Source of the DNA: Diprion similis
Taxonomy: Eukaryota; Arthropoda; Insecta; Hymenoptera; Diprionidae
Assembly: GCF_021155765.1 (NCBI RefSeq)
Contig: NC_060108.1
Coordinates: 14,409,025-14,473,024 of the forward strand
Direction of reading: 5' to 3'
Length of the DNA: 64,000 nucleotides
A program made the position numbers and the translations under genes. Below the pieces are notes generated by a model that was not told where the DNA came from, ran no database searches, and saw only the letters and a list, made by a program, of their open reading frames with translations. Shown piece after piece: positions 4,901-42,429 of the stretch (position 1 is its first letter; each line of letters begins with the position of its first letter).

Positions 4901-7900
4901 TTAAATATACTTACACTTATAAAGTATCTATCAATTTTATGCTATTGTGACTAATTCTTATTCACAATTTTAAGTTGAGAGACATTATAAAAGCTCATAG
5001 TTTATCTTAATTTTTTACATTTACACATCATTATCACCTTTGCAAATTGAGTACACAGTCAATATAGTACCGAATCAGACCGGATGTGGTCAAGTTGATA
5101 GTAAAAAGACATTAGTGTAGATACAGTCAAACCAGAACTACAATTTCCCCGTTTATCAATCCCTCCCAACATACGTACGAACCTGAAATGTTGAATTTGT
5201 TTCGTTTGCTGAAGCAGGATACGGCCGCAGAGAACGTTAAGATGGACTGGCACGACTACGAGCAAATATCGCGAGAAAAGAAGAGGGTTGGCCTGGGAGA
5301 GCACGGCCTTCCCGCATCTCTGTCAGGAAGCGACGACGGGGTGAAGGCATCGCTGTACAAGGTGAACGGATTCAACGCGGCACTAAGTGATAAAATATCG
5401 TTGAATCGTTCGGTCCCGGACATCCGAAACGCCGGATGCAAGGCGAAGAAGTACCTCAAGAACCTCGATCAGGTCTCGGTAATAGTCTCGTTCCACAACG
5501 AGCATTTCAGCACACTGATGCGAACCTGCTGGAGCGTCGTAAACCGTTCGCCAGCCTCGCTTTTACGAGAAATAATATTGGTCGACGACGCGAGCACGAA
5601 ACCGGAGCTGGCCGGTGAACTGGACAGATATGTGGCCGCGAATCTGCCAAAGGTCAAAGTTATCAGGCTGCCGACAAGGTCGGGTCTGATACGGGGCAGG
5701 CTGGCCGGTGCCAAGGCCGCGACGGCCGAGGTCCTCGTGTTCCTCGATTCTCACACCGAGGCCAACGTCAACTGGCTGCCCCCTCTGCTCGAGCCTATCG
5801 CCCTCGACTACAGAGTTTGCGTCTGTCCGTTCATAGACGTGATCGCCTTCGAGACCTTCGAGTACCGGGCCCAGGACGAGGGGGCCCGGGGCGCCTTCGA
5901 CTGGGAGCTTTACTACAAGCGACTGCCACTGCTGCCTGAGAGCGCGAAACATCCAACCGAACCGTTTGAGAGCCCCGTGATGGCCGGGGGTCTTTTCGCG
6001 ATAAGTACTAAGTTCTTTTGGGAACTTGGAGGGTACGATACCGGGCTCGATATTTGGGGCGGTGAACAGTACGAGTTGTCCTTTAAGATCTGGCAATGCG
6101 GGGGACGGATGTACGACGCCCCGTGCTCGCGGGTAGGTCACATTTACCGCAAGTTTCCACCTTTTCCGAATCCCGGTCGCGGCGACTTTCTGGGAAAAAA
6201 TTACAAGCGCGTTGCCGAGGTTTGGATGGACGAGTACGCGGAGTACATATACCGCCGTAAGCCGCACCTGCGGTCCCTGGATCCCGGGAATTTGACCGAA
6301 CAACGAGCTCTCAGATCGAAACTCGGCTGCAAGTCGTTCAAGTGGTTCATGGAGACGGTCGCGTTTGACCTCGCCGACGTCTATCCGCCCATCGAACCGG
6401 ATGATTTTGCCTACGGCGAGATAAGGAACATCGGAGCCCCGGAATTGTGCCTCGATTCGAAAAATAAGCACCGGGACGAGGATATTGCTGTTGAGTTTTG
6501 CAAAAAGGACAACGCGAAGTTGGCTGGTGAACAGGAGTTCCGATTAACGTGGCACAAGGACATACGCCCGAAGGGGAAAACGGACTGTCTGGACGTTTCA
6601 CGGGGCGACGGAAAAGCCCCGGTGACCCTCTACCCTTGCCACGGGAAGCAAGGAAACCAATTGTGGCGCTACGACGTGGGGAAACAGTGGCTCGTTCACG
6701 GGTACAACAACAGGTGCATGGACCTGGATCCTGCCAGAAAAAAGGTGTTCGTTACTGCGTGCGACGCCTCGGCATCGACCCAGAAATGGCGAATTGAGAC
6801 CGTCGATATGAAGGCTATGAACAATTGGGAAAATTCGGGTCCTAAAGGAAGCAATTGACGCTGATTACGGTTATTAATTTTCCTGTTTGATACGAAGTTG
6901 AGAACTGTATATTATCTACCTTGGTGTCCACTGGTTTGTCGTTAAAATTATAATTATAGAATGCGCAGCTGGCTATGCATGAAGCGCAAGCATGTATAAA
7001 CAGGTGTAATATTTGTATATGTTTTCAACTACATGACGATATATGCAGGAGATTAAAATAACACTTTTCTTTATCTGCAAAACATTACTTCCTATTTCTT
7101 GTACGATATTGTACTGGTTTACAAACCACTTCATTTCCAAACAGTATAACAAGTAATGCGATGATAGAGTGCATTTCAGCGTTGAATCTTATATGTAAAG
7201 TGATTTTAAATTTTAATAATCAATCACAATTATGTGTACATACGTACATGACACATGCTCAATCACCCGCAATTTTACCAGAGGTGTGCAACTATATCGT
7301 TGATTTTTCACCAAATGTTTATTGATAGGAGTTTCGCGCGGGTCAAGGGTTTATATGGTTTATATGTATACTATATCTATTAATCAGTGTACCCCGTATT
7401 CTAATTACGCATTAGTTAATAAAATTTTCGCTGTAAGTCAACGTATGCATGACATTTCATCAAATTTCTACACATCTATTACATACATAGGTATGTAGGA
7501 AATATGCTGCGATAAGGCGCAGAAAAAACATATCACCCTTCACAATTATCGTGAAAACGATATATTGTTGAAGGCGTAGATATTTTTTGCATAGTGCCTT
7601 GCTATTTGATTTACCTTCGAGATTACGTAGCAACGTAGAAAGTTGTTTAATTGAACCAATTCAAGCTGCCAGTCTTGATAAAACAAGAAACACATTGGAT
7701 GGATGATAAATATGAGTTAGAAACCAACCGCGTTACAATCAGCTTAGGAAAATCGTATTATACATAGGTGTTCGTACAGATGCGTATGTATGTCATTATA
7801 TCTAAGTAAGAGAGTATAACTTTCAATCCTGATGAGCAAATTATGTCAATAAAGCGATTGCAATTATTTTTATATGTACATGATTGTCGTGAAGAGTCAA

Positions 7901-33919: not shown

Positions 33920-36900
33920 TCATAAAACAAGTTCTTGGAGTTCCTTTAAAAGCTCAGGTTCCTTTTTAATTTTATCCAACTGATTTATCTCCAAGTGCTT
34001 TCCAGCCTCCAACTGTCCTTTCAACTTTGTTATTTGATCCAGTTTCTGCAAAACAAAAATACAAACAAATAGGTTTTTTGTTTCAAAAATAATCACATCC
34101 TCTCTATTCGCTAACTCACACAATAGCATTGGTTTACTTACGCTTTTGACTTTCTTTATTTTTTTGTTTTTCTCTGGATCGTCTGTGAGGCAAGAATCCG
34201 AGTCTGCGACATTATTACTCGAAGGTCCATTCGAACTCGAATTGCTCGGCCTAGTCTGTTGGCACATTGTCGGTATACCTGTTATTGGCGTTGCCGGCGT
34301 TGTGGTAGCCACAGTCACCACTCCGGCCGATGCCTCTAATTCTTTCTTGGCTTTCTTTGCTTCCCGCTTCTTTTTTAGCTTCAAAGCAGCTTTAGAAGGA
34401 TTAGCTGTAAATTAGTTAAATTGCATTAGGTATTCAGATTTACTTGTGATGAATATCATAGTCTACAGCATTGAAAAATACTGTACAATTCGGTATTCTA
34501 ATAATTGAGTGTATAAACAATAATTCAAGTCATAGCCCAAACCTACTACTTACATTCCGAACTGTTCCTAATGCCCGGTTCGTCTATATCATCATGTAGT
34601 TTGAAATTAATAATTTGCCCCCTCGCCGAAGGTGGCCGATATGCTTGTTTCGACGCTGTTTATAATGGGCAGATAAAATAGATAGTTAGTACATTACGAA
34701 CCACAAATTACAGTGATGTTATCAGCAGGGTGAAATTAAAAATTTTTTACTATATTCTACCAACCTTGAGGTTGACTGGAGGTAATACCTTCCACTGCCC
34801 GATAACTGATTGGTTTTTCCTTAAACGTGTTATGAGGATAGGTCTGCCACAGTACCTCCCACAACTCTTCCTGCTTGTTCCACGGCCTCTCATAGAGCAG
34901 GGTTCCCGTATAGTGCCAAATTTTAAATCTATGACAGGATATATTATTTACTTACAGTTACTTAAAGGTTAATATGAGTTGCGGTATGTCAGTCATAGAG
35001 AAATACTTCTTTATTTGTATCCTACCCATTTCCCATACGAAGCCTTGGAGCGGTAGTTGCAGTGACAAAATGCTCACCGTCAGGTGACCACCGAAGCAAC
35101 GTCGTATCCGGAGCTTCAATTTTGGCAATAAGTTTCCTGCTTCCAACATCCCAGAGCTCCACACCACCATTCAGATTACCGAACCCAGCCAAAATCAAAA
35201 GTTCACAGTAGTCAAGGAATTTTGATTAGTTCATCAAACATGATTATACTTCACCATAAACGTGAAACAGAATAAATTTTCTTAACGCTAAAGAACTGTT
35301 AGTAAGTTTCTTGACTATGTGTTATTTGTACAAAATGTCGGATTATCACATAGTACTGCGAGAAATATCTGCAGATTCTCTGCCATTACCAGCACTTCAT
35401 CAATTATGTAGGAAAAAAAGGATATTGTTCCCATGTGGATTGTAGTATATGCTGTTCCGGTGTTTTGTGCCAAATTCAAAAACTGGTTCACACTTGAGGT
35501 TGAATAAAGTAGTTTTAGCTGGCATAAATCCATAAATTACACAAAATTCCACATGCTTCGGAGACCATTCAACACTATGAATTGGCCCTTCCTTCCCTGC
35601 AAATGATCACGTTCAATCAGGTTTACAAATGAAAGAGAATCGTTACAAGAATCTAAGCATTTAGACGTATGATTTTGAGAAAGCAGTGTTGCTTACCAAG
35701 CATTACCATTGCCGTTTGACCTTTGGTGTCAAGGTAATGTAATGTTTGTTTACCATAGTATGATGCACCCGTTTTGTCTACCTCTGTGCTTGTCATCAAT
35801 AGGGCACTAGTCCCTCGTTTGTTCCAATATATATCCACTCTATCAGACTGTATCACCGTAAAACGCAAAGGCACATGTAAGTAAATATTTACATTGTAAA
35901 AATGTATATCTTATAAGCAGTGATATTTACCTGAAAAAAACTTTTATTAGCCAAAGACTGTGATGCTTCAAATTTAGGGTACTGAAATAGTCGGCCAAAA
36001 GAGGGCTGGCCAGATGATCCTGAAAATATATGCATGAAATTACCAAAATTATTGCAGAGAAATCCAGATAATGGTTCACAAATACCGTGAATTTATGGTG
36101 AACAGGGAAAATGGAGTAACCAACATAGTTGAAAAAATGATTTTTAACCTCTTGTATGCCATCCGTAATGCAATTGACAAACTATGGACATCTCAATCCA
36201 TTTTTACGAATGTTAGATTCACATGCACTCGACCTTTCCTGTTTCCCATAAACTCACTATACATGAAAATATAATTTATTTACCTGGCATGTTGCAAAGG
36301 ACATGATAGGGGGGATTGCCTGTTGCTACACTAAATTTTGCAACCTTAGCCACGCTTATCCTATTCACAACCTTAGAAAAATTGGCATCTTCATAGAAGT
36401 TGACAGTGCTATTAACCAGCATACCACATATCCTTTCGTCACTAGACCACTGAAGCTCCCTGGCAATATTTACAGCAACGAATTATCATTAAATGTTGAA
36501 ATGTATTGCAAACCAATTTGAATTTGTACGTATCATCCTACCCTTACCAATCCATTTGTTTCTTATGAATAAAATCCTTTACCAGCTCGCCATTTTCAGA
36601 TTTCCATATACACAGGTTTGGACAGCCCTGGGGATTAGCCTGTGATACTAAAACAAGGATTTTGTGTTAGAGATCCTTAAGCATTTGCTACAACATATCA
36701 GTGGAATATCAAGTTTCCATATCAAAGTATTTCAATCATTAATCATTAGAATTATGGGATCTGTGTCCATTTGTATATAGTCAATGTCGTATGTGCATGG
36801 AAATGAGAATTACGAAATACACAACGTACTTATAAATGGTTCCCAAGTTGCTAGGTACGTTCCTTTGGGTGAGAAATCTATGGCAGAGATCTTAGGCCGT

Positions 36901-37365
36901 TTAATTTCAGCAACAATTTCCCAATTTTGGGTAGTAGCTATCTTCAGCGATACTCCATTTGTCCAGACGTAGTATCTCCCCTCGGGGCTGAACGCCATGA
37001 GTTTACAAGATCTACTGACATCGCGGGGGAAACCACTGACTGGCTCATAGGTTGGTGGACCCTGGCCCAGACTCGTTCCTGTCGAACCTCGCACTGTAAA
37101 CAAATACGCGTACACATATAAACATTATGTATGCATTGATTCGAGACTCGTGACACCAATCTTTCTGCCTTTTGCACTGCACTATGAAATCTCTCAAGCA
37201 GTACGCTCCTGAACATGCTCTACAGATATAGCCTTCGTACGTCTTACGTAGGATTCTCCGGGGAAACATAAGATCAAGATACTGATGAAACAACAGAAAA
37301 CGCCGGCGAGAATTATCGTAATAATTAGCTGACTTACCAGCGATACAAGGAACGGTCGTGGCCAT
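33920..37365 (-). CDS. Eukaryotic translation initiation factor 2A (eIF2A), 12 exons
   Basis: Single-chain WD-repeat factor that can deliver Met-tRNA to 40S subunits in specialised initiation (distinct from eIF2-alpha). Exons, first to last: 37338-37365, 36830-37093, 36548-36647, 36284-36459, 35931-36019, 35697-35847, 35426-35596, 35026-35200, 34765-34928, 34554-34655, 34142-34404, 33920-34045. In frame throughout: 602 residues, against about 585 in human. Visible: an N-terminal beta-propeller with typical family blocks (STEVDKTGASYYGKQTLHY, LAGFGNLNGGVELWDV, RWSPDGEHFVTATTAPRLR), then a basic Lys-rich coiled segment and a C-terminal helix (QLDKIKKEPELLKELQELVL). Exon 7 to exon 8 is joined by an AT-AC intron, annotated separately; this was the only junction I found there that restores the conserved frame. 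Its ATG is about 1.5 kb upstream of, and divergent from, the small secreted peptide gene. Confidence 0.95.
35201..35425 (-). other. U12-type (minor spliceosome) AT-AC intron in eIF2A
   Basis: On the minus strand this 225-bp intron starts ATATCCTTTTTTTC, an exact U12 5' splice site. It ends TTCCTTGAC-TACTGTGAAC, an exact U12 branch-point motif with the branch A 11 nt before the terminal AC. Removing it joins AAC-A to TT-TTG, giving NPHGN-ILILAGFGN in line with the family. No GT donor or AG acceptor fits the homology at this place. Confidence 0.9.
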
Positions 37366-38832: not shown

Positions 38833-39090
38833 ATGAAACCATCAATATTTGCCACCGTAGCCGTAGCGACAATCCTCATTTCGGCTGAGGTAATTACTGT
38901 AGAAGCTGGACTGGTGGGCATTGGACTTTGCTATGCTGGCTGCGCAACACTCGCCGTCGCATGCTTTAGTGCAGCTGGTGCCATATTCGGCGTCGCAAAA
39001 ATTGCCCAGATCAATGCATCTCCAGCCCTAGGACAATGCAATTCGGCCTTCGGTTCTTGCGAATCTGCCTGCGTCGCAGCATTTGGTTGA
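38833..39090 (+). CDS. Small secreted peptide with mirror-symmetric cysteines
   Basis: An 85-residue protein with a clear signal peptide (about residues 1-25, cleavage near VEA/GL). The mature part is about 60 residues, rich in Ala and Gly, with six cysteines at 33, 37, 44, 69, 76 and 80. The spacing C-x3-C-x6-C-x24-C-x6-C-x3-C is exactly symmetric. The coding part is one exon. It is preceded by an acceptor-like ttaatttcag, so a 5' UTR intron is likely, and followed by AATAAA signals at 39170 and 39182. I recall small Ala/Gly-rich Cys peptides of similar spacing in fungi and various animals (often annotated as zygote-specific-like), but cannot confirm the relation. Role unknown: three internal disulphides and secretion are inferred. 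No neighbouring gene suggests a function. Confidence 0.75.
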   Translation: MKPSIFATVAVATILISAEVITVEAGLVGIGLCYAGCATLAVACFSAAGAIFGVAKIAQINASPALGQCNSAFGSCESACVAAFG

Positions 39091-39621: not shown

Positions 39622-42429
39622 ATGGATATCGGTGAACTACTATCATACAAGGTAATTATTCAAATATTTCTACAAGTTACCAAAATTACGTGATGTCTAG
39701 TTTTCAATGTGGACAGAAAAGTTTTTTTCACGTTTTTTGAATTTCTTTCGTTACCGATAATTAAGCTACCTACTAACAATATCTACCCTAAAAATGTGTG
39801 TCAGAAACATAACCTGTTAATTTCTCCGACACTTGTGGTTATTGTCGGTAGACAAGGGTACACTCACTGCATTACTGTCATCAGCTGATCAATTGCAAGT
39901 TCTGATGATTACTGGTGGAGTATGTTACGTTTTATCTATGGGATGAAATTTTAGCCACCCAATACACCGAAGCGGCCAGTACATGGAGATGAGGAAGATG
40001 AGGATAACTGGGAAAATGTTAAACGAGCAAAGCGTGTGATTAAAACGCCATATCATCCTCGTCAGCGACAGATCAATGAGGGAGATCTCACTCCGGCTGC
40101 TAGCAATGAACCTCCTACACCGATCAGAGCTGCACTTCCAGCTCCAGCCAATGATGTTATCGAACCTCAGTTGACAGAAAAAGAAAAACAAGAGATTATC
40201 AAGTATGTAGAGACGGAAGCAGCAGAGGTTGAAGCCTTAGATGAAGCCACACTAAAACGAATGGTTCTATTGTTTGAAAAACGAGCTCTTAGGAATCAAG
40301 AAATGAGGGTAAAATTTCCAGATCAGCCAGAAAAGTGAGTTGGTATTTACCCATTTATTTATGAAGACACACTGCCAATTGACTTTTTACCATTCTGTCT
40401 TTTCTAGATTCATGGAATCTGAAGTGGAACTACATGAGACATTGCAAGAACTAAATGTAGTGGCAACAGCCCCAGATCTCTACCCAATAATGGTAGAACT
40501 TGGTGCTGTGCCTTCCATGCTAGAGCTTCTTTCTCATGAAAATACAGACATTGCTGTTGGAGTGGCTGATCTACTGCAAGAGCTCACAGATGTTGACATT
40601 TTGCATGAAAGCCAGGACGGGGCAGATACGCTTATAGATGCATTGCTGGAACAGCAAGTATGTGCCCTCTTGGTGCAAAATTTAGAAAGGCTTGATGAAA
40701 GTGTAAAGGAAGAAAGCGACGGAGTTCACAATACTTTGGGTAATATTCCGTGACATAGCAAGATGATTATTACAGTATGGAACTATAAAGTTGATCTAGG
40801 TTCAATTAGGAAATGAAATTCTTAGGGATATTTATTTTTGATCTCAGTTATCACCTTTACCTAAAAGTTTGCTTCTTAATTTTTTTCAAGCCATATTCGA
40901 AAATCTACTCGAGTTCAGACCAGACCTCTGTGTGGATGCAGGCAAGCAAGGACTCCTCCAGTGGCTATTACGAAGAATCAAGGTGAAGGCTCCATTTGAT
41001 GGAAATAAGCTATACGCCAGTGAACTGCTATCTATACTTGTTCAACAAACGCCTGAGAATAGATTGCTGCTTGGGGATTTGGATGGAATAGATGCTCTTT
41101 TACAACAGCTCGCTGTAAGGATTTTGCTGTTTCCTAACTATATTGCGAATGATCTTGATGAAACAATAACAGATACGAACTCGTTTATTCTTATCCTGTA
41201 GTTCTACAAGCGTCATGATCCCCGAACGGCAGAGGAACAAGAAATGATGGAGAATCTGTTTAACGTTTTGTGCTCCAGTCTAATGGCAACGATAAATCGA
41301 GACAGATTTCTCCGTGGTGAAGGGCTCCAGCTGATGAATCTAATGCTACGAGAGAAGAAAATGTCTCGTAATGGATCTTTAAAGGTACATAAAGTGAAAA
41401 ATTCCTGGAAAGTTGTCACACTCTAGTCGACTCAGATTTCCGTTTTCTAGACAGAGGTTTATATTACAGGTACTAGACCATGCTATGAATGGGCCAGATG
41501 GAAAGGACAATTGCATGAAGTTTGTAGATATACTAGGATTAAGAACAATTTTTCCATTGTTCATGAAAACACCAACTAAGAACCGAAAAAAAATACTCAC
41601 AACAGAAGAGCACGAAGGTAATTACATAGTTTTTATTTACTGCTGTTCCCCTCTTGCTGAACTCACAATTTTATCTTGTTCTTGCCACCTGTATTTATTC
41701 AGAGCACGTCATTTCCATTATCGCAAGTATGCTGAGGAATTGTAAAGGAGCACAGAGACAACGTCTGATAAGCAAATTCACCGAAAACGATTTTGAAAAA
41801 GTCGATAGACTGATGGAGCTTCATTTTAAATACTTGGAAAAAGTAGAGGAGGTTGAAAGAGATACAAAGGCAAGTCGTGTAACTATAACTAACTATTCTT
41901 GACTTTTGTAGTCATCTATAAATTGATATCAAAACTGACACTACTTACATTACTTATATCCACTTCTGATCCCTACATCTATGTGTATGTGTGGGATTAT
42001 CACTGGATATTTTCTGTTCCTGATATTATTCAGAAATTCTAATTTACAGGATGACGAAGAAGAGGAAGAATCTTACATGAGGAGACTGGATGGAGGATTA
42101 TTCATTCTCCAGTTAGTAGATTACGTTTTATTGGAAGCCTGTACAGGCTGTCCGCCAACGGTGAAACAACGGGTAACTAGAATTCTCGCACAAAGACGTG
42201 CATCTCTCAAGACCATAAGGCACATTATGAGAGGTAGGTTGGACAGCTCATATTATGAATTCGCACTTCCAGTACGCTTTTCTGTTTCTACAATATGAAG
42301 GAGACAGCATAAAAACCGGTGCTTTTCATAATTCCTATAGAATATGCGGGTAATCTTGGTGATGCAGGCGACAATGAGTGGAGAGAAGCAGAACAGCAAC
42401 ATATTTTGCAACTGATCGACAAGTTCTGA
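39622..42429 (+). CDS. Beta-catenin-like protein 1 (CTNNBL1), 9 exons
   Basis: Armadillo-repeat nuclear protein associated with the CDC5L/PRP19 spliceosome complex. Exons: 39622-39651, 39955-40334, 40408-40739, 40891-41114, 41202-41384, 41470-41617, 41703-41869, 42050-42233, 42341-42429. In frame throughout: 578 residues (human 563). Visible: the conserved MDIGELLSYK start, an acidic/basic N-terminal stretch with KRAKR-type nuclear signal, then armadillo-like helical repeats with family blocks (NLERLDESVKEESDGVHNTL, GLLQWLLRRIKVKAPFDGNK, FTENDFEKVDRLMELHFKYL). Exon 7 ends with a GC donor (AAAG/GCAAGT), an accepted minor class. It is convergent with Asx, whose 3' end lies about 2.2 kb away. 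Confidence 0.95.

Follow-up and report, generated by a model that had tools for sequence, protein, structure and literature searches.

A predicted minor-class (U12-type) AT-AC intron in an eIF2A gene

The eIF2A gene in the stretch of DNA analysed here (the window, 64,000 nt, in which all coordinates are given unless stated otherwise) has one intron with AT-AC termini, which raises the question of whether this intron is of the minor, U12-dependent class. From its sequence and that of the surrounding gene, we judge that intron 7 of eIF2A very probably is a minor-class AT-AC intron, with a probability of about 0.96.

The eIF2A gene model and the join at intron 7

In the rechecked gene model, the coding sequence runs from an ATG at 37365 to a stop at 33920 and is interrupted by eleven introns, ten of which are of the GT-AG type and one of the AT-AC type (Table 1). 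The model protein matches the Pfam eIF2A family (PF08662, E 6.8e-79) and, over residues 1-430 of 432, PDB entry 8dys (E 6.6e-144), a chain that is named eIF2A and that we take to be the human protein. When a 157-residue piece of the model protein spanning the junction was compared with the 269-Mb genome, four candidates were scored and three matches obtained, all three of which lay inside the eIF2A gene, so that the piece traces a single locus, exon by exon. No second eIF2A locus or retrocopy was found in the 269-Mb genome with this piece.

Table 1. Positions of the eIF2A gene, its AT-AC intron, and the flanking exons in the window
Feature	Position	Strand	Details
eIF2A gene, coding span	33920..37365	-	12 coding exons, 602 residues and stop; gene model, rechecked
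Coding exon 7, 5' of the AT-AC intron	35426..35596	-	Gene model; overlaps match G000:C4:14444439-14444603
Predicted U12-type AT-AC intron 7	35201..35425	-	225 nt, phase 1
5' splice site of intron 7, ATATCCTTT	35417..35425	-	Sequence; pairing possible with the genome's own U6atac and U11
Branch motif of intron 7, TTCCTTGAC	35211..35219	-	Predicted branch A at 35212
3' terminal AC of intron 7	35201..35202	-	Sequence, gene model
Coding exon 8, 3' of the AT-AC intron	35026..35200	-	Gene model; overlaps match G000:C4:14444046-14444237

Removal of intron 7 restores the conserved reading frame, joining the exons as GGG AAC A|TT TTG ATT, and the joined protein reads YYNPHGNILILAGFGNL, which is colinear with human YYSPHGHILVLAGFGNL in 8dys and aligns to it without a gap. 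The last base is A in the exon but C in the intron, and the first base is A in the intron but T in the following exon, so the junction is unable to slide by even one base. With intron 7 retained, the frame continues for eight codons beyond exon 7 (NILFFLHN) and reaches a stop at 35402.

We also scanned for other boundary pairs, considering eight kinds of termini, a first intron base between 35480 and 35301, a last intron base as far down as 35121, and a length of at least 41 nt. Within this range, there were no stop-free GT-AG or GC-AG pairs. The stop-free pairs consisted of 14 AT-AC pairs together with 32 AT-AA, 22 AT-AT, and 8 AT-AG pairs, the latter 62 being counted only. One of the 14 AT-AC pairs, 35425/35201, preserves the conserved residues as they stand in 8dys, and the other 13 were rejected, because residues of the conserved stretch are gained or lost in each. 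A sequence-only reading of this DNA had proposed that the AT-AC join restores conserved eIF2A sequence where no GT-AG pair can do so, and the scan and the colinearity with 8dys bear this out for the scanned range.

Splice-site motifs and minor-spliceosome components

U12-type introns have the donor consensus RTATCCTTT and the branch consensus TTCCTTRAY, with the branch motif located some 8 to 20 nt from the end of the intron. Intron 7 combines AT and AC termini with a donor, ATATCCTTT, that fits the former consensus and a branch motif, TTCCTTGAC, that fits the latter at 9 of 9 positions, with 11 nt separating the branch A from the last intron base. The earlier descriptions of both sites as exact minor-spliceosome consensus sequences and of the branch-to-acceptor distance as 11 nt were therefore correct.

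The genome encodes all four of the minor spliceosomal RNAs U11, U12, U4atac, and U6atac, in each case with a score above the Rfam cut-off: 89.1 bits for U11, 110.8 bits for U12, 86.3 bits for U4atac, and 84.9 and 83.8 bits for two U6atac genes. It also contains PDCD7 (PF16021), the U11/U12-59K protein, as two adjacent pieces scoring 133 and 72.9 bits, the second of which has one in-frame TGA. Across the window itself, Rfam models at their gathering thresholds identified no families. A second U11-like match elsewhere in the genome (L081; G000:C6:1945305-1945445, minus strand; 55.2 bits), likewise above the Rfam cut-off, starts with AAAAAGUG, compared to AAAAAGGG in the main U11 gene (L080); this difference falls in the stretch that reads the donor, and L081 could represent a U11 gene that has decayed, or a variant one.

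The UCCUUU of the intron 7 donor pairs with AAAGGA of U6atac in a duplex of -6.8 kcal/mol, and the corresponding values for the donors of the other ten eIF2A introns range from -2.9 to +0.8 kcal/mol. Seven consecutive Watson-Crick pairs are possible between this donor and the 5' end of U11. At the branch motif, UUCCUU of TTCCTTGAC can form six Watson-Crick pairs with AAGGAA of the U12 RNA from the same genome, but the U12 duplex energy at the 3' end is not distinctive, at -8.2 kcal/mol for intron 7 versus -8.1 kcal/mol for the GT-AG intron 3. In minor splicing, U11 acts at the donor before U6atac. For intron 7, the predicted course would be that U11, and then U6atac, recognises ATATCCTTT, that U12 pairs with TTCCTTGAC in such a way that the branch A is bulged, and that the minor spliceosome joins 35426 to 35200.

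The donor motif ATATCCTTT occurs 2994 times in the 269 Mb on both strands (1533 + 1461). As control donors we used 68 other such sites (the first 68 of the 100 listed), none of which is followed within 600 nt by TTCCTTRAY and an AC at U12 spacing. Within 1500 nt, 1 of the 68 has a branch motif and AC, and this site (L056) was rejected as a candidate, since none of the three frames is free of stops over the 100 nt upstream. Among random stretches of the window, TTCCTTRAY with AC was present in 25 of 5000 within 600 nt and in 68 of 5000 within 1500 nt, counts that are inflated by eIF2A intron 7, itself a part of the window. A first-order simulation based on the dinucleotide make-up of the window, with the looser donor ATATCCTT and introns of up to 3 kb, yielded at least one motif pair in 20 of the 200 windows generated. 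Because of this last figure, the motif pair alone is not decisive, and what decides is its location at the join that restores the frame: motif pairs as such are not very rare, whereas a pair placed exactly where the frame needs it is.

A second AT-AC intron, in syntaxin 6, and the weighing of alternatives

Syntaxin 6 (Syx6/STX6) has an AT-AC U12 intron in both fly and human (PMC2831892). In the genome studied here, the syntaxin 6 gene has a 482-nt AT-AC intron (C3:6904283..6904764), the donor of which, ATATCCTTTT, directly follows the codons of ...DLEDTI plus one further base and also contains the motif ATATCCTTT. The intron ends in ...CCTTAACTTCACACATAC, and its removal restores ...DTICIVEKNP..., with no gap at the junction when aligned to syntaxin 6 in PDB entry 1lvf. 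In the scanned range, we found 19 frame-keeping boundary pairs, consisting of 17 AT-AC, one GT-AG, and one GC-AG pair; the GT-AG and GC-AG pairs were rejected, as in both of them IVEK is lost and other residues are added. An alternative AT-AC pair, 6904279/6904760, gives an intron of the same length and a protein with R for C; since this shift is length-neutral, the syntaxin 6 boundary is not unique, and its exact placement rests on the motif. Against TTCCTTRAY, the branch stretch of the syntaxin 6 intron, AGCCTTAAC, matches 7 of 9 positions, and that of eIF2A intron 7 matches 9 of 9. Compared at the level of host gene and AT-AC type, this intron is like the one in fly and human.

One alternative is that the AT-AC ends of eIF2A intron 7 are real but that the intron is excised by the major (U2) spliceosome. 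U2-dependent AT-AC introns, although rare, are documented in sodium channel genes, for example as SCN4A intron 21 (PMC2831892). However, the sodium channel introns of this type have G at +5 (PMC2831892), where eIF2A intron 7 has C, and the full ATATCCTTT donor together with TTCCTTGAC 11 nt from the intron end also argues against major-class excision, which we consider very improbable. It is less probable still that splicing uses other boundaries, whether an adjacent AT-AC pair or termini of an unusual kind, with the motifs being there by chance. Such an explanation could draw on the 13 other AT-AC pairs and the 62 AT-AA, AT-AT, and AT-AG pairs (counted only) that also leave the frame open, as well as on the motif pairs that arise by chance in simulation, but the scanned range holds no frame-keeping GT-AG or GC-AG pair and the 13 AT-AC alternatives alter conserved residues. 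Just as little weight falls on a sequencing or assembly error in this stretch, or on the eIF2A gene being a pseudogene, given that its 12 exons are open in frame, its ten other introns are GT-AG, and the 157-residue piece found one locus in the genome.

Thus, assignment of eIF2A intron 7 to the U12-dependent class, as put forward in the sequence-only reading, is supported by the junction and frame, the motifs, the four minor snRNAs, and the second case in syntaxin 6. It is favoured because removal of the intron restores both frame and protein, the ten sibling introns are GT-AG, the genome has the snRNAs and PDCD7, the donor can pair with U6atac and U11, syntaxin 6 has a similar intron, the intron is in phase 1, and none of the 68 control donors has the motif pair at U12 spacing within 600 nt. 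Set against it are the undistinctive pairing with U12 at the 3' end, the 20 of 200 simulated windows with chance motif pairs, the existence of U2-type AT-AC introns, and the non-unique syntaxin 6 boundary.

Relation to known minor introns and neighbouring features

The AT-AC ends, ATATCCTTT, TTCCTTGAC, the short distance from branch to end, phase 1, and the presence of minor snRNAs are common to eIF2A intron 7 and U12-type AT-AC introns, and we found no difference in kind between them. Intron 7 therefore adds to a well-known kind of minor intron and leaves the understanding of minor splicing unchanged. In both animals and plants, minor introns are most often in phase 1 (PMC10639083), and AT-AC introns are a minority of the U12 type, making up 8.6% in Apis (PMC7367187). 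Conversion to the U2 type is less ready for AT-AC than for GT-AG U12 introns (PMC2831892). The table of 19 Drosophila U12 introns in PMC2831892 has no entry for eIF2A, and the word eIF2A does not occur in the main texts of PMC7367187, PMC10639083, and PMC2831892. In an automatically inferred table, the Apis row gives the values 161 and 122 (PMC2831892), which, by way of the Drosophila figures in the same source, we take to mean that, of the 161 human U12 introns for which the host genes have orthologues, 122 are missing. On this reading, each survivor helps to chart the loss.

For annotation of eIF2A, gene finders limited to GT-AG introns would probably miss or mis-join intron 7. Slow splicing of this intron would be expected to yield a truncated message, which would probably be degraded. 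eIF2A is an initiation factor linked to stress translation. That intron 7 has been kept by selection, with its slow removal limiting eIF2A output, is a speculative idea to which we attach a low probability; if it were true, the stop reached after eight codons on retention could couple eIF2A to the activity of the minor spliceosome.

No relatives of the 157-residue eIF2A piece were found in viral contigs. A search of genome contigs with the same piece gave one match, in a bacterial (Anaerolineae) bin (L010:4101-4196), extending over 32 residues at 41% identity, which is perhaps a WD40-type repeat.

Other features of the window include an open frame near eIF2A (39955..40338, plus strand) that matches the CTNNBL1 family (PF08216, 42.6 bits). 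Between eIF2A and this CTNNBL1-like gene lies an 85-residue open frame (38833..39090, plus strand) that starts like a signal sequence and has a body rich in Cys and in Gly/Ala (GLVGIGLCYAGCATLAVACFSAAG). It has no Pfam match at E 0.001, and relatives of it, at 54% identity, are found at two further places 60 kb apart on C11. We also observed a single stop-to-stop frame of 580 residues (5116..6858, plus strand) with glycosyltransferase 2, galactosyltransferase, and ricin-type lectin domains, the combination seen in polypeptide GalNAc transferases.
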